Positions 1 to 64,000 of a stretch of 64,000 bases of DNA are shown one piece after another. The stretch covers positions 930,001-994,000 of the forward strand of contig NC_037320.1 of assembly GCF_000143535.2 (NCBI RefSeq), read 5' to 3'. Each line of letters starts with the position of its first letter. Positions within the stretch are counted from its first letter, which is position 1. The position numbers were made by a program, and so were the translations under genes. The notes under the pieces were generated by a model. That model saw nothing but the letters and a program-made list of their open reading frames with translations. It had not been told where the DNA came from and did no database searches. The stretch is from Botrytis cinerea B05.10. Taxonomy: Eukaryota; Ascomycota; Leotiomycetes; Helotiales; Sclerotiniaceae.

Positions 1-2164
1 ACGGCCAACCACCGGTTGAACAGCTGGAGAAGGAAGATTATCACCCCAGTTCATGTGGATAAAGAAGAAACTGAATTGAAATGGCAAAATGATAACTTCA
101 TGCTGGTTGCGAAGGGTGCTCTACAATCTTATCAAGGCAGTTCTCGTGTCATACGCACCACACGATCGGTACTAGCAGCTCCATCTCCCCATAATGTGCC
201 AGTATATCTTAACCAAGGCGTGGACATCCTTTCGGGAGAAGTGATCATCGCTGCTTCCGACACCTTGTCATCTATTTTGACTGTTCCAACATCTCTTTCA
301 ATTCCTGTTGATCTTGAGACCTCCACCCACCCTCAATACCTAGATCTTCTGACTACCGACCTTTTAATCAAGACCGTTGTCGATAAAATCACCACCGGGA
401 ATCGTGTTTTGCTTTATGCCGGTGATTTTGCTGCTGCGGCTTACGAAAAGTTCTGGTCATATCACTTGCATGCAAAACAACTTCAGGTACACTATTTGAC
501 TGGAACGAAGGAGTTAGCCACCACCGCATTATGGCAATACTGTAATCCACAAGCTCCAAAACGACTTATTACATCAATTCTGCCCAAAGACATTGACGTT
601 TTCATCAATCTCTCAGAAAGAAATTCTGCAGCCAAAATACTAGACTCTCTGCCTCTCCGTTGTCAGCAATTCACATTTTCTTCGGCGATTGCGGCTACAT
701 CTTCAATCCCTTCTCTTCAGCCAATACAAGACATGACTGCGCTGCTAACAAGCGCTCATGCTGCTGTTCAAAAGTATATCGAATTAGATTTTACCGTCCA
801 GTTTCCGGAGTATAGCGTCGCGGAGCTACTCAACCACAAGCCGAAGGAGCTCTCCAGCATCCCAATCGTAAATTGGTCGTGTCCGACCCCGCTTCCCGCC
901 AATTATCAATCGGTTGATACATCACAGCATATTCTGCGCCCCGATCGGACATACTGGCTTGTAGGATTGACAGGAGATCTGGGCCAGTCTCTCTGCGATT
1001 GGATGGTTGTGCGTGGTGCTCGAACAATTGTTCTTACCAGTCGACAAGTTCGCATGCCCACTGATTGGGTTCACAGACATCGGGACAACGGAGTCAATAT
1101 TGTTCCTCTAGCAGGGTATGTAAATTCGCCGCTTCTTTCTAAAATTTGATACAAGAGCTAACTGTACTAGTGATGTCACCAAGGCGGCCTCTTTGAAAGA
1201 GATACACACCATCATCACAAACGAACATCCCCCTCTTGATGGCATAGCCAGCGGTGCAATGGTGATGCGCGAAAATTTCTTCCAAAAGACGACTGCGGAA
1301 GAATTCAGTCAGGTCGTCGAGCCCAAGGTGCGGGGTCTACAGAACCTAGATGATCTAGTTGGCGACCAATCGTTGCTATTTTTTATTGCCTTCTCTTCAG
1401 TTCTGGCAACACTAGGTAATCTCGGGCAAAGTGCCTACACCGCAGCCAACGTAGCATCCGAGGCACTAATTGTGCGCCGTCGACAGCGCAAACTGGCGGG
1501 CTCAGTGATCCAGATCTCCCGCATGACAGATGTTGGATATGTGAAACGCCAACGATCAACATACTCAACACAGGAAATGGAACGATTGGACGCTTACTGT
1601 CTGCCCATGGGTGAGCGACAGCTACACGCCTTATTCGCTGAAGGAATTTTGGCCGGTCAGCTGCAGCAGTGCAACTCCACGCCTGTTATCACAGCAGGAA
1701 TTCCCAGAATCTCAATTGATAAAGCAGGGAATGCGGCTTGGATGAAGAATATTCGGTTCTCGAGCTATTGGGAGCAGGAACCATTGCACCAGGATGATCG
1801 AGTTGAAAAGAAAGCAGGCAATGTTCCGATTCGAATTCAATTATCAGAGTCTAAATCTACTGATGAAGCAGAAGTGATCGTCCGGGGTAAGTGGGCACCG
1901 TTTCTTCTGATTAGCAATTGTACTGATTCTTTCCTAGATGGTGTCACCACCAAAATCCGCACATGTCTCCATCTCCCATCTGATCAACCTGTCGCGGAGC
2001 ATGCAGCTCTGATCGACCTTGGGGTTGATTCGTTAGTTGCGGTTGACATCCGGGCATGGACGATGACCGAGCTGGGGACTGATATACCAGTTTTGAGGCT
2101 TCTGTCTGGAATGACTGTGGATGAGATTGTCAGTAATGTCTTGGAGGTTATTCAGACATCATAA
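1..2164 (+). CDS. Reducing polyketide synthase, C-terminal part (KR-ACP), 5' truncated
   Basis: Frame 1 is open from the first base, so the gene starts outside the window. Exons are 1-1115, 1171-1886 and 1938-2164, giving 685 residues. Introns are 1116-1170 (branch GCTAAC) and 1887-1937. About residues 1-310 look like the inactive structural region before a ketoreductase. The KR nucleotide-binding segment follows (YWLVGLTGDLGQSLCDWM), where an Asp sits in place of the usual second Gly. The catalytic Ser (FSSV) and Tyr/Asn (SAYTAAN) are present. The end is an acyl carrier domain with LGVDSL; the phosphopantetheine Ser codon is 2030-2032. The KR style resembles fungal PKS-NRPS hybrids, but translation stops right after the ACP, with no condensation, thioesterase or reductase domain. 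The product cannot be told. Family assignment is firm; hybrid ancestry is inference. Confidence 0.93.
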
Positions 2165-11875: not shown

Positions 11876-13913
11876 GGTATATTTACGAAGACAACGAATT
11901 TTCTTAACATTCAATTATCGCAATTGCGAGCCTCTTGCGGTATTTCCAGTTCGTTCCATTTAGGAACAAGTATGGAATTCACGATTGATGGATTTGGGAC
12001 ACAATTTTCAGCATAGGTGCTTATTGTGGTGATGGGAAGGAAAAAGGCGTTTCATAGTTTATAAGATTTCATCGCTCGAAAGGGCTGTGTGTTTAACAAT
12101 ATTATTATTTCATGTTACTACTTTCAACATTCGACCTTCTAGTTGCGGATATGTATATGTGAATTATTATTAATTTGCTGACTGAAGTATCGTGATTGTC
12201 TTAGCTATGGTCTCTGGTCCATATCTTCACATGACATGCCAATTCCGCGTGCCTCGGACGACATTTTCCAAATGCCGTGGAGCTCACCAAAAATCTTTTC
12301 TCTATCCCAAGTGGTGATGGGACGGAAGCCTTCCATGCTATTCTACCTTGTAGAAATACTATTTGCAAACCTCCGCAACTTTGAGACAGGACGAGAGAGC
12401 GCAGTATCCTCTCACGAAAGGAGAAAGTTGCCCATATTAGATTTCATGGTGAGCAACACATGTAATATGGATCAATTAACGATGAGCGAGTGAATTCAAT
12501 ATATTGGAATCGAAGAAATAAAGTCAGAGGCACAAAGAATAATCAAGGATTTTAGCAAGAGAGCTATGGGTGGTTGTTGAGTTTGGGTGGAACAGTCAGA
12601 GGAGTAGCAACGGCGTCAATCATAGAATGCCAGTAGATTCGCTTGTACTCCCCTCCATTGGTTATACATATACTGGTTGCTTAAACTTATAGATCCATAC
12701 TCAGAAAAGGTTGCTGGCCATCTTCCATGCCCTCTCTCGCCAGGAACAAGGCTGTTTGTGTCTGATGTCAGCTGACCAGTGCTTTTGTGTCTTGGTCATT
12801 GACAGAAAATCATAATATCACCACGTCAAAGGTCTCTCCAATAACAAGCTTCCAAGCTCTATGCGCATTTCAGCACATTCAATCAACTGCAAGCATTCAT
12901 GATTTACTTCAAAGTGATAGATATGAGGTATTCTGTGTCCACAAACATGATTCTGACCTTTGTGGCTTTTATGATTATCAGACTTAAGTGGTAGCATCTC
13001 AACTTTCTCGCTGTTATTGTCCATCTGGGTGCTCGCTTCGATATCCAATGGAAGATGTCAGCGATTTCTTCTGGTATTTCAATTGTTTTGATTTCAATAT
13101 ATCATGTAGTCTTCTCGATCTACCTTCGTTTCTTCCACCACAAATTCCCATCACCAGCTTCATCACTCGAGACAGCTACCATATACTCTGAATTGCCAGT
13201 CAACTTCTCTCCTCGTCCCAATACTCTACATTTCAATGAAAGCTTAATATACTTGACAACCTTTCAATACCCAATATGCAATTCGAAAGTGGGAGCAACC
13301 TTGACCGTAAATCACTGTTCTTCCGAACTTCCATGGTTGTCTTGTCTACTATAACTGGCATTTTCTTCATTTACATCATCGTTGCTCTCAGCAGAAGATA
13401 GACAGATTTGTACGTTTGGATCGCCCACCGCGTTCCGAGTTCAAGGACTGACCAAGACTTTAGGAAATACAAGCCCGAGAAAGTGTATGTTCATCTTGTG
13501 TCTTCACTTTTGACACCACCACCACTACTTTCTTCATGCCAAACATTGTCACTGAAAGGGAAGGGTTCTTTTACTGATGATTCAATGGACTTTAGATATA
13601 CTCTTTCAACCAATGAGATAGAGAACTATACAGGAGATTGAGAGTTTGTTGTTGGGACAATTGAACACGTGCAGCTCGCAATTAACATCATATACTGCAC
13701 AATCACTTGCATTGCATTTACTTTTACTACAAGGTTTGTACATTCAATGGCCAATTGCTATGTCTTCATCGATCATTCCCTTCAATTCACAAGACTTTGT
13801 GTCAGTTACATTACTGATACAGTTGATGCGGAACAGAACCAACTCATTTTCATTCGCAGTCGACTTCAATCCGAACAATCACCACGTCAACCTTGATAGC
13901 TTGCACATTCACC
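11876..13913. other. Spacer of 2 kb with no firm gene
   Basis: Contains the HAD 3' flank and the upstream region of the next gene. A frame at 13055-13354 encodes a hydrophobic N-terminus but lacks support. Many short frames near 13640-13890 are in the leader of the downstream gene and may be upstream ORFs. Confidence 0.4.
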
Positions 13914-16395
13914 ATGGATCCGGACAATGGACCAACCGAAGAAGAAAGTCTTCCTTCAACAAAGTTGCTTCAATTAAATGATATCAAAGAATTCCCTGCA
14001 CTTTCATCCAACCCAAAACTTTCCACACAAAACCCCATCGCCACCACACCTAATTGGGGATCATTATTTGCTTCGCAAGTACCACAACCATCTTGCGGCA
14101 TAAACCATTCTACACTTCCATCTCTTCCTGTTACCCCAACCAAAGAAATGTCATCCCCCAAAGGTGATTCAGTCAGCGAAAAAGAAAATCTAGTTTTATC
14201 GCCCAACACGACAGCATGTATGAGTATTCTATCTACCGAAACTGGCGACACAGCCGTTGAGGGAGAAGATGCAAATACTCTTTGGGATTCACCGACTCAA
14301 AATGGAGAAGACGATACTACTATGTTGAAGGACGGAGAATTTGACAATGGGCCCACCGTGCTTTTTCCGGATTTCGGTGCAACAGAAACATCAAGCCCTT
14401 CACAAAAAGAACTTCTTCCTCCATTTCAATTTCCAGCTGTGGCAGCAGAGTCAAAAGGTGATATTTACAGTGCTTCACCAGAACTCACAAAGACCAAAAA
14501 TATGGAAGTTGAAGAACTATGCGAGGCAGAACGCCATGATACTCCCTCTTACATTAAAGGAGGTTTGCCTTTATGGGACGTTGTTGTAAATGATCCACAT
14601 AGAGTTATTCACGCCATCAAGCATATGATGCATGGTATTGTTGTTATGCAGAAAGCAAAGGGTGCACCACCCGCAGAAATCGAAGAAATTGTGAACAGTC
14701 ATCTAAGCACTTTGAGGCAGATTGAGATTCTAACGGAGAAGGAAAGGCTTGCGAGATCAGCACTTGAGATGAAGCAGGCAGCAGACAGAGGGGCACGACT
14801 GGCTTTTGAGAAGGAACGTGCTATCACTGCCAAGGGGATGGAGCCTTTAAAGTCGGCTACCAAGTTCAATCCTGATGCGGTAAGTTTTGATCTACTGGAG
14901 TCTGCCGAGGAGAAAATCTGCTAATCGTGTCTTGCAGAAGCCTTTTGCCCCGTCGAGATTTGTGACATCAGATTTCAGACCTTCTGCGCCTCCGTTTGTA
15001 TTGGCTCCTGCTATACAGAACCCATCTCCATTGAAATATTCCGTTATTCAACAACCAGGGTTTATGGTAGAACAAAGTCGTGCTCAACCTGCACAAGGTA
15101 ACTTTCATCCATTGCTCAACAGATCCAGAACCTGGTCTACACATCGCCCTAAAAACATTCCAATTGGTCCGTACGGCCCCTTCAATGCATACAACCAGAA
15201 GCCACCAACACCAATGTTCCTTCAGCATACACCACCGCCCCCCTCTGTGGCTTCACCTCAGCTCTCATCTCATTATCTGATTTATTCGGATATTCAACAG
15301 GAAAACATCACCCAGGATCCTCTCTATTCGCAAGCTCCAGTGGAATATCAAGATGAAACTGGCGGAGATGATGATATATTGCTGGCAGATAGACCGACAC
15401 TGCGAATACCTGTTCCAGGAAAGACAGATCATAAGTCTACTCCTACTTCACCGACTAAACAATTGTCTGCAAACACTTCGCTCAAAGCTACAAGCACAAA
15501 CACTAGTCCTCGAAGAAGAACCTTTGATGTTCAAGCGACTTATCAACAACCACAAGCCTACTCACAAAAGCTATCGTTGAAAAATCTTATTCCTGCCACA
15601 ACCACCGCAGATGAAATCAAGAAAGTTGCATTGCAACTTCCGCGAACCCACCGCCATATATGTCCTTCTTCTTTGACTTCTCCCGACTTTCAATGCCCAA
15701 TGCCAAATTGCATACTCCAGCGAATCTGCCCGGATTTCACAAGTGACAATGGCTGCTCATTTCGACCACCTCCTCTCAGCGACTGGCCCTGGAACTATCC
15801 GCCCAGAGAACCCCCGATTAATCAATCCCGACAGTGTCCATACGTACATATTCCAGGTACCTGCCTCCATTCCCTCTCTTTTTACCGTATCCACTCAGCA
15901 TCCGAACCGGCATCCAATCCTGAAGTATCAAACCACTATTGTCCCGTCTCCAATTGCACTATGACTCGCTTTCACTCTTGGGGGTGTGCTAAAGATTGGA
16001 AAACAGGATTCGCAATCAATGGCATCACACCATGCGCTCCAAACCACAATCAATTTTCTCCTGCAGAGATTAACACGGAATGGCGATGGAGAGTTTCGAT
16101 GGAAGGTCTACGATTTGCGCATGAGAGAGGAGAATACGGATGTCAGGGTGGAACTATGCCGGCCAATGCGTTGTTTCCAGAAGACCACAAGGGTGCGGAT
16201 TCGAGGAATTGGGGGCCGGATATTCCTACTGAGAAGCCCAAGGCGGATTGCAAAAAGGCGCATGTGAGAGAGAAGGAGAGAGGCCGCTTGAGAGGTGGTA
16301 GCAGAAAGGGAGGAAGTAGAGGACGTGGTGATAGAGGCGGTTCTTCTGACACGAGAAGAGAATTTGCGAGGGAGAAATCGACGAGATCAGCTTGA
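13914..16395 (+). CDS. Large Cys-rich protein with RGG tail, probable RNA-binding protein
   Basis: Exons 13914-14879 and 14938-16395 (intron 14880-14937) give 807 residues. ATG 13914 is preferred over 13893 because of its CACC context. The N-terminal 240 residues are Ser/Thr/Pro-rich and disordered (LNDIKEFPALS). A helical, charged segment follows, about 225-320 (IVNSHLSTLRQIEILTEKE). A long disordered middle comes next. From about residue 560 a Cys/His-rich region holds two CPxxNC modules. The first continues as C-x8-C-x26-C-x3-H, like a CCCH zinc finger with a long insertion. The C-terminus is Arg/Gly-rich (LRGGSRKGGSRGRGDRGG). No named family is recognised. RNA binding is inferred from the RGG tail and finger-like spacing. 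Confidence 0.8.
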
Positions 16396-42666: not shown

Positions 42667-45300
42667 TCACCTCTCCAAGCGAATTTTCCTCCCCTTCCTC
42701 TTTCCCTCGCCTCCACTCCACGTTCTCCATATCCAATTTTCTGCCTCCCCATCTTCCCCTTCCCCATCCCGTTCATCCTCTCCCAACAACACACGATCAA
42801 TAATCACATCGTCCCTCAATAGCGGATCAACCTCCTCTCCTTTCCCCTGGCTCCCTACCGCCATAAAAATCCTCTTCTCCCAATCCTCCATATCTATTTT
42901 CTTCCGTCCCTTGCGCGCGCGTCTCTCGGTCTTCTCTGCCAATTCCGCATACGCTTTAGGGGTTCCTTGTAAATGGAGTTTGTGCGCATATCGTCTATCT
43001 CTAATTTTTTGCAGGTCGGATATTCTTTTTGCTTCTTCGGTATCTTCATCATCTTCTTTATGGTGATGTTCTCTCCCGTCTTGTCCCAATCCGATTTCTT
43101 CCAAGCTGGGGAACTCCTTCAGGCTGATTTTCGAATGACTGTATCTGGGTTTCGTTTTTAGGGTCGGGAATTTGGTGCCGGTTGTCGGGTCTACGGCATT
43201 GAGCATTTTGTTGAAGGGTGGGGGGAGAGGTTTGTTGTTATCTTTTTCGGGGTATGCTTTGATGAAGTCTGGACGGCCGGGAGGTTCGAGGAAGTTTTCT
43301 GGGAGAGGCCCGAGCTGGCGACGATGTTTGGTTTTCGGTTTGGGTTTTGGAGGAATATCGAAGTTGAGGATGAGAGGAGCGGAAGCTTTGCCCCGCCAGC
43401 CGGGAACTTGGTCTTCGGGAACGGATTTGAGGATGGAGGGGGTGTAGAGGGGAAGGATGGGTCGCCAGGGACTAGAGGGGGAGAAGATATCGTATTCGCG
43501 TTTTGCGTTCGTGGGGGGTGGGGAGACGGATTGTTGTTTCCAACCCGGAACTTGATCGGGGGCAACTTCTTTGAAGATTTCTGGGGAGGTAGGTGGAAGG
43601 AGGGGTATCCAGGGACTGTCGGGGGCCTTGACATCGTATTCGCGTTTCGTTCTATCAGATCTTGAAACAATAGCTTGTTGTTTCCAGCCCGGAACTTGAT
43701 CAGGAGCGACTTCTTTGAGAATTTCTGGAGAAGTCAAGGGGAGAAGAGGAAACCAGGGACTATCTGGTGCGTTTATATCATATTCACGAGACTTGAGCTT
43801 TTTGTGTTTAGCTATGGCGTGTTGATCCCATCCTGGAACTTGACCGGGAAGAACTTCCTTGAGGATCTCTGGAGAGGTTAGGGGAAGCAGAGGAAGCCAT
43901 GGACTATCTGGTGCGGTGATATCATACTCGCGCTTGAATTTTTGAGAGGGGGACGTTGCTGTAGAGATGGGTTGAAGAGTAGTAGTTGGCTCCACATAAC
44001 CTGGAACTGCGCCAGAAGGTACTTGTGTCCAGAATTCAGGCTCCTCAAGTGTTAGAGATGCCCAAGGATTAGGGTTAGCTGTGGTTGAAGCTCTACTTGG
44101 GTAAGCAAAGGTACCCGATGGTAGAATGTAACTTTCTGTGCCAGTAGGGCCGGCAATAGGAATAGTTGGAGGGTCAGGAGGCAAGCCGAACGATTGAGTG
44201 AGAGTTGGTAGTTCACTTGGGTAGGCGAAAGTACCAGGTGGTAAAACGTAACTTTCGGTACCAGTAGGACCCACAATAGGAGGAATTGTTGGAGGGTCGG
44301 GAGGTAAACCAAATGATTTGGTGGTGGTTGATGATTCGATAATTGTTGAAAGAGAGATGATTGGTATCTTGCTCGTTGTAGAGAATCCAGGAACTGACGA
44401 AATACTAGAAGTGAAGCGAGTTGAGCTAGAAGATGTCGATTTAGAAATTGACGAAGATTTTTGACTGCTCGTTTGCGTCGTCAAACTCAAGAGTTTAGAT
44501 GAAGATGTAGTCCCCGACTGTGAGGCCGAGATAGATGACTTAACAGAAGACTTCAATGAAGAAGTAAATGTCGTTTTCGCAGATGTCGTCGACGTAGGAT
44601 TCATCTTTTTCAACTCATATATCTGCATATGAAGTACTCCGCCCACAATACCCCCACAATATTTGCCATAATTAGACGGGCAGGTCGATTGACAAAATGA
44701 AGCGGTTTTAACGGAAAGTATTGAGATGTAATTGGAACACCAGCAAAATCCAGGCTCTATGCCGGCATAGCGGTAGGGTATTCCATTTTGCCCCGAGATA
44801 GAACATGCATTCACACAACTCCGAATCGTGTCCGCGGCAGGCCCAGTCAAATTGAGCAGTGGAGAGCCCAAAGGTTTTCCCCGAGTACCATCTTCAAAGC
44901 ATCCGAAATTATCATATGTACCAACGTTGGTTGTTACTGATAATACACTTCCCGTATTAAAAAAGCCTCCATCGCGAGGTAATGTTTCTCCACGCTTGAC
45001 AGGCTCATCAACCAGGCCGAGATGTGACAATTCAGGCAGTGGAACTTCTTTCTCAAATTGATGAAGCACCTCGTAACAAGATTTGAATAACTGGTTGTCA
45101 GATGGGTCGGTGCCCAAACACGGTGATGCAAATGAAGGAATAGGGATAGTGCTAGAGACTAGAAATTGTATGCAAAAGTCTTTGGCGTTGTTGGGCTCTG
45201 ATGAGAGTGCATCTAGACAAACATTGATGGCACTGAATGATTGAGACGAAGTGACTGAAATAATGCCTAGAGAAGCTATAAACAGATTTGATAGAATCAT
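42667..45300 (-). CDS. Secreted WSC-domain protein with four Kex2-type tandem repeats
   Basis: One exon; start placed at 45300 because MILSNLFIASLGIISVTSSQ is a clear signal peptide (877 residues), although the frame is open further upstream. An N-terminal four-Cys segment is followed by a WSC domain at about 128-225 with the usual eight Cys (FGCFED, CVNAC, FCWCSN, YCGG). A Ser/Thr mucin-like stalk and two copies of an SFGLPPDPPTIP-GPTGTESY unit come next. Then four units of exactly 48 residues occupy about 456-647, each beginning (K)R-EYD and containing SPW, LTSPEI and QVPGW. The C-terminus is Lys/Glu-rich and partly helical. WSC domains bind wall glycans. Three units start at Lys-Arg, the Kex2 cleavage motif, so release of peptides in the Golgi is plausible but unproved. 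Confidence 0.88.
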   Translation of the reverse strand: MILSNLFIASLGIISVTSSQSFSAINVCLDALSSEPNNAKDFCIQFLVSSTIPIPSFASPCLGTDPSDNQLFKSCYEVLHQFEKEVPLPELSHLGLVDEPVKRGETLPRDGGFFNTGSVLSVTTNVGTYDNFGCFEDGTRGKPLGSPLLNLTGPAADTIRSCVNACSISGQNGIPYRYAGIEPGFCWCSNYISILSVKTASFCQSTCPSNYGKYCGGIVGGVLHMQIYELKKMNPTSTTSAKTTFTSSLKSSVKSSISASQSGTTSSSKLLSLTTQTSSQKSSSISKSTSSSSTRFTSSISSVPGFSTTSKIPIISLSTIIESSTTTKSFGLPPDPPTIPPIVGPTGTESYVLPPGTFAYPSELPTLTQSFGLPPDPPTIPIAGPTGTESYILPSGTFAYPSRASTTANPNPWASLTLEEPEFWTQVPSGAVPGYVEPTTTLQPISTATSPSQKFKREYDITAPDSPWLPLLPLTSPEILKEVLPGQVPGWDQHAIAKHKKLKSREYDINAPDSPWFPLLPLTSPEILKEVAPDQVPGWKQQAIVSRSDRTKREYDVKAPDSPWIPLLPPTSPEIFKEVAPDQVPGWKQQSVSPPPTNAKREYDIFSPSSPWRPILPLYTPSILKSVPEDQVPGWRGKASAPLILNFDIPPKPKPKTKHRRQLGPLPENFLEPPGRPDFIKAYPEKDNNKPLPPPFNKMLNAVDPTTGTKFPTLKTKPRYSHSKISLKEFPSLEEIGLGQDGREHHHKEDDEDTEEAKRISDLQKIRDRRYAHKLHLQGTPKAYAELAEKTERRARKGRKKIDMEDWEKRIFMAVGSQGKGEEVDPLLRDDVIIDRVLLGEDERDGEGEDGEAENWIWRTWSGGEGKRKGRKIRLER
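43360..43935 (-). repeat. Tandem 144-bp coding repeat, four units
   Basis: Unit starts on the minus strand are 43935, 43791, 43647 and 43503, an exact 144-bp (48-codon) period with no indels between the units. Upstream at about 44060-43970 a diverged fifth unit is seen (PWASL...PEFWTQVPSG). Confidence 0.9.
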
Positions 45301-62848: not shown

Positions 62849-64000
62849 ATGGATATCCCAAAGCTTGACGATGTTTCGTCACCCAATGTCACCATCTACG
62901 AGCCAGATCTTATCCCCAACGCAAGAACGAGTCAAGATAGTGGTGCAAATCACGATATGCGACGTAAATTCACTCTCTGGTCAATACTGGGAGAAGGGTT
63001 CTCTCTCACAAATTCATGGTTTGGAATTTCAAGTGCTTTAATCACAGGCATAGATTCTGGCGGTCCTGCCCTGTTTGTGTATGGAATACCTCTTGTTGCA
63101 TTCGTGAGTGTTTTTGTAGGATGCTCGTTATCAGAATTGGCAAGTGCGATGCCAAATGCTGCAGGACAGCATTTTTGGGTTATGGAATTAGCTCCCAAGA
63201 GATATGCCAGGCCTTTGTCATTTGTGACTGGATACTGTGCATGGGCTGGATCCTTGTTTGCATCAGCGAGTGTATCATTGGCGGTCGCATCAGCAGCAGT
63301 TGGATGCTGGCAATTGAATCACTCTGATTTGTGAGTTATCAAAGTACAGGTTGTCTCCGGGTCACAGTCATAGATTAACTCATTGACAGTATCATCCATG
63401 AAGTGCATATTTTTGTTGCATACCAAATAGTCAATCTATTTACTTTTCTATTCAATTGCTACGGTAGAATTTTACCTACACTTGGGACTATTACTCTTTA
63501 CATGTCTTTGATTTCCTTTGGAATCATTCTTCTTTTTGTGCCATCACAAGCCCCAACGCATCAAGACGTTAAATTTGTCTTCGCAACCTTCATTAACAAT
63601 ACTGGCTGGTCAAACAATGGTATTGCTTTCATTGTCGGTCTTGTAAACGCAAACTGGGCATTTTCTTGTCTTGATAGCGCTGTGCACCTAGCAGAAGAAG
63701 CTCATCAACCAGAAGTAGTCATTCCAATCTCAATCATGGCTACGATTGCGATTGGATTTACGACTGCGTGGTTCTTCGTTATTGCGATGTTCTTCAGTCT
63801 CAACAACTTTGATGCTGTTGTCGGAACGTTTACAAAAGTACCGATTCTGGAATTGTTTTATCAGTCAGTCGGAAATCGATACGCTGCAATTTTCCTCGAG
63901 TCTCTTATCATGGCGACTGGAATTGGTTGTCTTGTAGCATGTCATACGTTGCAATCGCGGTTGTGCTGGACCTTTGCTCGAGATGGAGGTGTTCCATTCC
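62849..64000 (+). CDS. APC-family amino-acid permease, GABA/choline type, 3' truncated
   Basis: Exons 62849-63330 and 63390-64000 (intron 63331-63389). The first in-frame ATG is 62849; about 364 residues are visible before the window ends. A hydrophilic N-terminus (MDIPKLDDVSSPN) is followed by FTLWSILGEGFSLTNSWFGI and the family's SGGPALFVYGIPLVAF, then LSELASAMPNAAGQHFWV. Next come FVTGYCAWAG, and helix 6-8 material with NANWAFSCLDSAVHLAEEAHQPEVVIPI, the GABA/choline permease signature. The last visible part is CHTLQSRLCWTFARDGGVPF, where the family usually has SRQLWAFARDG. Such plasma-membrane carriers import GABA, choline or other amines; the exact substrate cannot be read from the sequence. 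Confidence 0.93.

Follow-up and report, generated by a model that had tools for sequence, protein, structure and literature searches.

A WSC-domain protein of Botrytis cinerea with a 48-residue repeat array as a putative Kex2-processed precursor

The gene at 42667..45300 (minus strand) of a 64,000-nucleotide stretch of Botrytis cinerea B05.10 DNA (contig 11, 930001-994000; here called the window) encodes a WSC-domain protein that also carries four tandem 48-residue units, three of them preceded by the dibasic pair KR. The question raised by this locus is whether the protein stays intact or is cut by the protease Kex2 into separate products. Kex2-cut repeat precursors are widespread among fungi. 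The functions of such Kex2-processed repeat proteins (KEPs) are described as largely unknown in the abstract of PMC9769878; a wall-binding domain carried alongside the repeats would, if the reading proposed here is true, tie the peptides to the hyphal surface and offer a direct entry to function. On balance, the sequence features described below suggest that the gene probably encodes a multiproduct secreted precursor from which Kex2 would free three Pro/Trp-rich peptides along with a WSC lectin and a tail. If so, a lectin that binds wall or slime and a number of short peptides may come from one protein.

The reading frame is intact over exactly the span given in the original prediction: the ATG is at 45300, the TGA ends at 42667, and the 2634 bases encode 877 amino acids plus a stop in a single exon, with no intron and no internal stop codon. 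Its full-length best match, protein P0002 of B. cinerea BcDW1, is 99% identical. The four units stand in the perfect 144-bp register reported earlier. REYD occurs at amino acids 457, 505, 553, and 601 (window positions 43932, 43788, 43644, and 43500), a spacing of exactly 48 residues or 144 bases, and the array was called independently by Tandem Repeats Finder (period, 144; 2.8 copies; 74% matches; score, 391). Unit 1 (amino acids 457 to 504; 43789..43932, on the minus strand, as are all features of the gene) has a REYD start with KFKR before it, unit 2 (505 to 552; 43645..43788) has KKLKSR before it, unit 3 (553 to 600; 43501..43644) has a REYD start with RTKR before it, and the more diverged unit 4 (601 to 648; 43357..43500) has NAKR before it. 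KR is thus present at 456/457, 552/553, and 600/601, and unit 2 has S504-R505 after KHKKLK, as originally described. The unit region is 17% Pro, the predicted products are hydrophilic on average (grand average of hydropathy, -0.5 to -0.7), and the region matched only itself in the B. cinerea genome (42.63 Mb; 18 contigs).

Searches with the whole protein, with an alignment, and with region 440-800 gave 22, 25, and 22 matches, respectively, and 25 different homologs in all. The whole-protein and alignment searches were restricted to proteins of similar length and scored only the candidates with the most shared words (7989 and 7988, respectively), limits that excluded short precursors without a WSC domain. 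All 23 homologs with a species assignment are from Sclerotiniaceae (Botrytis/Botryotinia, Monilinia, Sclerotinia, and Stromatinia); no S. sclerotiorum protein is among the 25. Unit number ranges from two to four across the family. Among the 76 unit borders in 26 proteins, the 25 homologs and the window protein, KR was found at 56, SR at 14, PR at 2, and QR, RR, NR, and PQ at one each. All 24 proteins with units have KR at the first border, P0023 and P0024 having no unit. The second border is SR, PR, or PQ in 13 of the 15 Botrytis/Botryotinia proteins and KR in two B. porri proteins; it is also non-dibasic in three of the four Sclerotinia/Stromatinia proteins and in P0025 and is KR in the three Monilinia proteins with units. 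The expectation that orthologs keep KR at the unit borders was therefore confirmed for the first border and for the larger part of the whole set, and it failed at many second borders. These natural variants, with two to four units and a second border that is dibasic or not, help to ask what the cut sites do.

The borders were counted in several passes: 70 in the first 23 proteins, 69 in 22 proteins, 76 in all 26 proteins, and 75 for matrix scoring. Filters kept some borders out of the 69-border set (four in P0025 and a single one in each of P0004, P0007, and P0026), and the 75-border set is without the SR-KYD border of P0007. Several gene models are doubtful and were retained in every count. 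P0004 (another reading frame in its last part) and P0010 and P0013 (16 residues short within a unit) likely contain gene-model faults, and P0020, P0021, and P0022 also appear to be gene-model problems; the odd models of other isolates and species look as if gene finders had put false introns into the repeats. P0024 and P0025 look like a single homolog broken in two at a conserved Trp that precedes the array.

Residues upstream of the borders vary, and the dibasic pair is largely retained. In the 69-border set, positions P3 to P10 have an entropy of 1.9 to 2.9 bits, while P2 is K in 51 borders and P1 is R in 68; K holds P2 in 39 of the 53 borders that are left once identical stretches are taken out. 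The ten [KR]R sites in the chain were scored with a Kex2 matrix built on Saccharomyces cerevisiae data (PMC2515848); the matrix passages of that paper state no rule for combining columns, and by column product the highest scores were 0.385 (site 552), 0.360 (site 660), 0.356 (site 456), 0.157 (site 600), and 0.135 (RR769), so that the top four are the three KR borders and an RRQ site that closes the array. Family-wide, 57 of 75 borders scored above 0, with a median of 0.32 versus 0.09 for 149 other [KR]R sites. The proposal of Kex2 cutting agrees with dibasic borders that are conserved (56 KR and 1 RR of 76), score high, and lie in a region with no confident structure in the predicted model; border 2 does not fit it. 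The further idea that every unit is released was not borne out, since border 2 is mostly non-dibasic in the family and its sequence here, LKSR, scores 0. With a score of zero at this border, units 1 and 2 should remain joined. A partial match to a kexin-type P-domain (positions 1 to 56 of 86) is present on contig 5 of the genome.

Selection on the units was estimated from pairwise comparisons, the figures being rough because the units are short. In the 37-residue core, units 1 to 3 show nonsynonymous divergence (dN) of 0.08 to 0.14 and synonymous divergence (dS) of 1.3 to 3.8, with dN/dS ratios of 0.02 to 0.08. The 11-residue linkers have dN/dS ratios of 1.1 to 4.5 in the five of six pairs for which the ratio was computable and proportions of nonsynonymous differences (pN) of 0.55 to 0.73 in all six pairs. 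The core of units 1 to 3 is under strong purifying selection, and the linkers are unconstrained. Since this core is conserved at near or full silent saturation, the KR pairs of unit 1 and unit 3 are old, separate copies; this is less clear for units 3 and 4. For the unit 4 core, dN/dS is 0.26 versus unit 1, not computable versus unit 2, and 0.69 versus unit 3 (dS, 0.60). The border K is encoded by AAG at unit 1 and by AAA at units 3 and 4, a codon difference which argues that the residue K itself has been retained.

Other repeats in the same chain, both missed in the original prediction, have no dibasic borders. Two copies of a SFGLPPDPPTIP... repeat are located at amino acids 329 to 363 (44212..44316) and 370 to 403 (44092..44193); they align at a score of 160, reached by none of 2000 shuffles. 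This tandem (44092-44316) varies in copy number, several homologs, e.g., P0005 and P0006, having one. A diverged unit core, PWASLTLEEPEFWTQVPSGAVPG, without REYD and without KR, is located at amino acids 412 to 436 (43993..44067); only 1 of 2000 shuffles scored as high against unit 1, and 26 of 2000 did so against unit 3. By pattern search, 18 of 23 proteins, among them that of the window, have a counterpart of this core. Monilinia fructicola P0014 and M. laxa P0019 have two copies of this KR-less, REYD-less core. As the core adjoins the array and is itself duplicated in these two proteins, the KR-bordered array may have grown from an older, plain repeat. The SFGLPPDPPTIP repeats and PWASLTLEEPEFWTQVPSGAVPG are built-in controls: duplication in this chain occurs without KR borders.

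The array is closed by R660-R661-Q662 (43315..43323), the dibasic site that ranks second of the ten on the Kex2 matrix. Counted by eye, RRQ is kept in 21 of the 22 family proteins with a readable site and is SRQ in P0016. It leads into a charged C-terminal tail (amino acids 662 to 877; 42670..43317) that is conserved in the family, with the blocks LEPPGRPDFIK, YSHSKISL, and LHLQGTPKAY. Neither RRQ nor the tail had been noted before, and the same is true of a four-Cys region near the N terminus (amino acids 21 to 103; 44992..45240), which ends in K102-R103. Counted by eye, this site is present in 23 family proteins, 21 with KR, P0017 with KH, and P0023 with RR; P0015, P0025, and P0026 lack it.

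The remaining layout, a signal-like start, an eight-Cys WSC domain, and a Ser/Thr stalk ahead of the four units, was confirmed by the frame translation and Pfam. The signal-peptide-like start (amino acids 1 to 20; 45241..45300; cut position estimated) was recognized by hydropathy: this region is the sole stretch of the 877-residue protein with a 19-residue mean above 1.6. The WSC domain (44650..44907) is the single Pfam domain of the protein (PF01822; E value, 5.7e-10; 39.7 bits versus a cutoff of 27.8), and a WSC match is present in 20 of the 23 members of the family alignment A1. The eight cysteines in and around it are at positions 134, 162, 166, 186, 188, 203, 207, and 215. The stalk (amino acids 232 to 411; 44068..44607) is 42% Ser plus Thr. 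Wsc-type wall sensors have a WSC domain, then a Ser/Thr stalk, and then a single transmembrane segment. The B. cinerea protein resembles them in having a WSC domain followed by a Ser/Thr-rich stalk but differs in that it has no transmembrane-like stretch after the stalk: beyond amino acid 40, no 19-residue mean exceeds 1.6, and the maximum is 1.21. A Wsc-type wall stress sensor was rejected as an identity for this protein, no hydrophobic stretch above 1.6 being found beyond the N terminus.

In the favored reading, the precursor would enter the secretory pathway, and Kex2 in the Golgi would cut after R103, R457, R553, R601, and R661. The predicted products are a four-Cys pro-region of 81 residues after trimming; the WSC lectin with its Ser/Thr stalk (amino acids 104 to 457; 352 residues trimmed), whose expected ligand would be glucan of the wall or of the outer polysaccharide or slime; three presumably disordered Pro/Trp-rich peptides beginning with EYD, namely, units 1 plus 2 (94 residues), unit 3 (46 residues), and unit 4 with a spacer (58 residues); and the charged 216-residue tail, with Gln as its first residue. 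Modifications aside, the trimmed peptides would have monoisotopic masses of 10595.60 (units 1 plus 2), 5051.56 (unit 3), and 6547.55 (unit 4 with its spacer). The peptides would most likely act extracellularly, at the hyphal surface, and as unmodified linear peptides, because no UstYa-type gene is nearby. A broader version of this reading, which we offer tentatively and consider rather unlikely as a whole, is that a single Sclerotiniaceae precursor delivers, in a fixed ratio, a glucan-binding WSC lectin and secreted Pro/Trp-rich peptides that work with it on the host or at the surface of the hypha, and that most of the Botrytis and Sclerotinia relatives, having lost one Kex2 site, now make units 1 and 2 as a stable two-unit peptide.

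Several observations weigh against processing, and they have to be set beside the possible, though less probable, explanation that the protein stays intact, with the units serving, on a WSC wall protein, as a disordered spacer or as a binding array, REYD...PW...VPGW as a ligand motif, and KR as a neighboring basic patch or a passenger. Of the 76 borders, 75 retain R but only 56 retain K. Seventeen family proteins lack a dibasic pair at the second border, and P0005 (QR) and P0009 (NR) lack one at the third. R persists at border 2, where no Kex2 cut is expected, and REYD thus appears to be conserved for a reason beyond cutting, so that KR could in part ride along with it. The intact form is also consistent with the KR-less unit core and the second KR-less repeat in the same chain, which indicate that repeats here do not need KR, and with other WSC proteins of the genome. 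Among 31 genomic WSC matches, three other long WSC frames were examined; their self-similar stretches have 24 to 27 identities in 40 positions versus 34 in 40 here, with one or two KR/RR sites each, the counts for L047 and L048 covering 1113 of 1221 and 1360 of 1738 residues, respectively. For the processing reading, these frames count as controls, as do the KR-less repeats of the present chain. On the side of cutting, Glu occupies P1' in 68 of the 69 borders, and acidic residues are reported in parts of PMC2515848 to be over-represented at P1', P2', and P4' of Kex2-cleaved sites; the Glu count is, however, partly built in, as the border search pattern was [EG]Y[DN]. The same parts of that paper describe some high-scoring or conserved KR sites that Kex2 leaves uncut. 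When matrix columns are summed, RR769 in the tail (2.77) outranks KR600 (2.63), the first three sites being unchanged, and border 4 scores only 0.064 in P0006, P0007, P0008, P0011, P0012, P0015, and P0025. Selection on unit 4 is weaker, and silent sites are not saturated between units 3 and 4. The homologs are close relatives, three of them (P0002 to P0004) from B. cinerea itself, and the counts are accordingly not independent. The predicted structure is poor (mean predicted local distance difference test score, 33), but the model was built from 23 sequences, which makes its low confidence weak evidence of disorder. What speaks for cutting rather than for an intact chain is that K holds P2 amid variable upstream residues, that few other sites in the chain match the Kex2 matrix as well as the KR borders and RRQ do, and that K is retained as a residue under two different codons.

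Kex2 might also cut the chain without making active peptides: it would remove the pro-region, and the cuts in the array would part the WSC lectin from the tail, leaving the units as inactive hinge debris. K102-R103 and RRQ are about as conserved as the unit borders, as this explanation would have it, and the Monilinia vaccinii-corymbosi model P0023 retains the WSC domain and the tail while the end of the stalk and the units are missing. That model could be mis-spliced, however, and debris would not need the strong purifying selection seen on the core of units 1 to 3; we regard this alternative as improbable. Still further from the evidence is the idea that the units are core peptides of a ustiloxin-type ribosomally synthesized and posttranslationally modified peptide (RiPP), which is very improbable. 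Dibasic-bordered repeats with a conserved Tyr are in line with it, as are the 44 UstYa-like matches (exon pieces, not genes) in the genome, but none of the 44 is in the window, the nearest on the contig starts ~0.8 Mb away, and the units, at 46 to 48 residues, are long. Of the 23 further window frames that span 180 residues or more, 20 were scanned (all but those at 1124-2161, 13827-14921, and 63379-63999), and none of the 20 gave a RiPP-type enzyme domain. A modified ustiloxin-type product was rejected on these grounds (no UstYa/DUF3328 match in the window and no RiPP enzyme domain in the 20 frames scanned), in agreement with the earlier statement that no UstYa-type gene is visible near the locus.

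The favored precursor reading places the protein close to the KEPs as defined in the detection sections of Le Marquer 2019 (PMC6339444) and Umemura 2020 (PMC7329392), with which it shares at least three similar dibasic-flanked units packed together and, as far as hydropathy suggests, secretion. The former asks for a signal peptide and no membrane segment, for at least four KR/RR fragments of which at least three share a motif, and for repeats covering at least 15% of the protein. Here, hydropathy alone gives one N-terminal stretch above 1.6 and none later; there are 11 fragments, three of which carry units (458-553, 554-601, and 602-661, judged by BLOSUM62 local score in place of the published motif steps, iupac2meme and FIMO); and the repeats cover 16.4% with three units (48 x 3/877), which is close to the threshold, or 21.9% with four. 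The latter asks for at least three tandem repeats of 8 to 100 residues between KR, KK, RK, or RR, and the protein has four such fragments of 44, 52, 48, and 60 residues with one unit each, as judged without the published 40-residue seed score. By the fragment, coverage, and repeat-length rules, the protein thus qualifies as a KEP. The B. cinerea protein differs from KEPs in its added WSC domain and long stalk, in its few and long (48-residue) units, and in having one non-dibasic border. The main text of the two surveys does not name WSC, though their supplementary lists may already include this gene. In the table of PMC7329392, KEP types annotated as Hydrophobin_2 (G-7) or Chitin_bind_1 (S-6) appear, and the types with Botrytis members in the part of the table covered here (G-2, G-3, and G-5) show no WSC domain. 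In the open-licence literature, we found no paper pairing "WSC domain" with "Kex2" and none on a B. cinerea Kex2 repeat WSC protein; the part of PMC4480369 that counts WSC proteins in both secretomes holds nothing on the repeats of this gene.

A Kex2-type repeat array fused to a surface domain is a known design. The systems nearest to the present protein are Rep1 and Hum3 of Ustilago maydis, both compared here by description only. According to the relevant sections of PMC4617103, Rep1 yields Kex2-cut, wall-bound peptides of 35 to 53 residues and one longer peptide, which is similar to the present array in repeat length (34 to 55 residues in Rep1) and in the proposed location of the peptides at the hyphal wall. 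Rep1 peptides are described there as amphipathic and as forming amyloid-like fibrils, whereas the present units are hydrophilic and 17% Pro; given this high Pro content, Rep1-like surface-active amyloid fibrils seem unlikely. Hum3 is presented in the same sections as a repeat array with putative Kex2 sites fused to a surface-active domain, but its hydrophobin follows the repeats, whereas the WSC domain of the B. cinerea protein precedes them. The secreted WSC lectins of Serendipita indica likewise combine WSC with a predicted signal peptide and are enriched in the outer polysaccharide matrix, and the passages of PMC9252488 that treat them describe no Kex2-bordered repeats. What would be new here, as far as sequence can tell, is the WSC partner and one silenced border within a Kex2-processed repeat protein design.

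A sequence search of the PDB gave only weak matches, mostly tryptases (best E value, 0.037), and a fold search gave three matches, none below an E value of 0.001, the top one (E value, 0.68) being a PAN module. In the model, the WSC region holds most of the residues scoring above 50, with parts reaching moderate confidence, and the signal-like start forms a low-confidence helix. Elsewhere on contig 11, several clustered WSC matches at 1173733-1175937, ~0.2 Mb away, perhaps represent one intron-bearing multi-WSC gene. The frame in which the window itself starts (1-1146, plus strand) closes with a partial ketoreductase (KR) domain match, PF08659.

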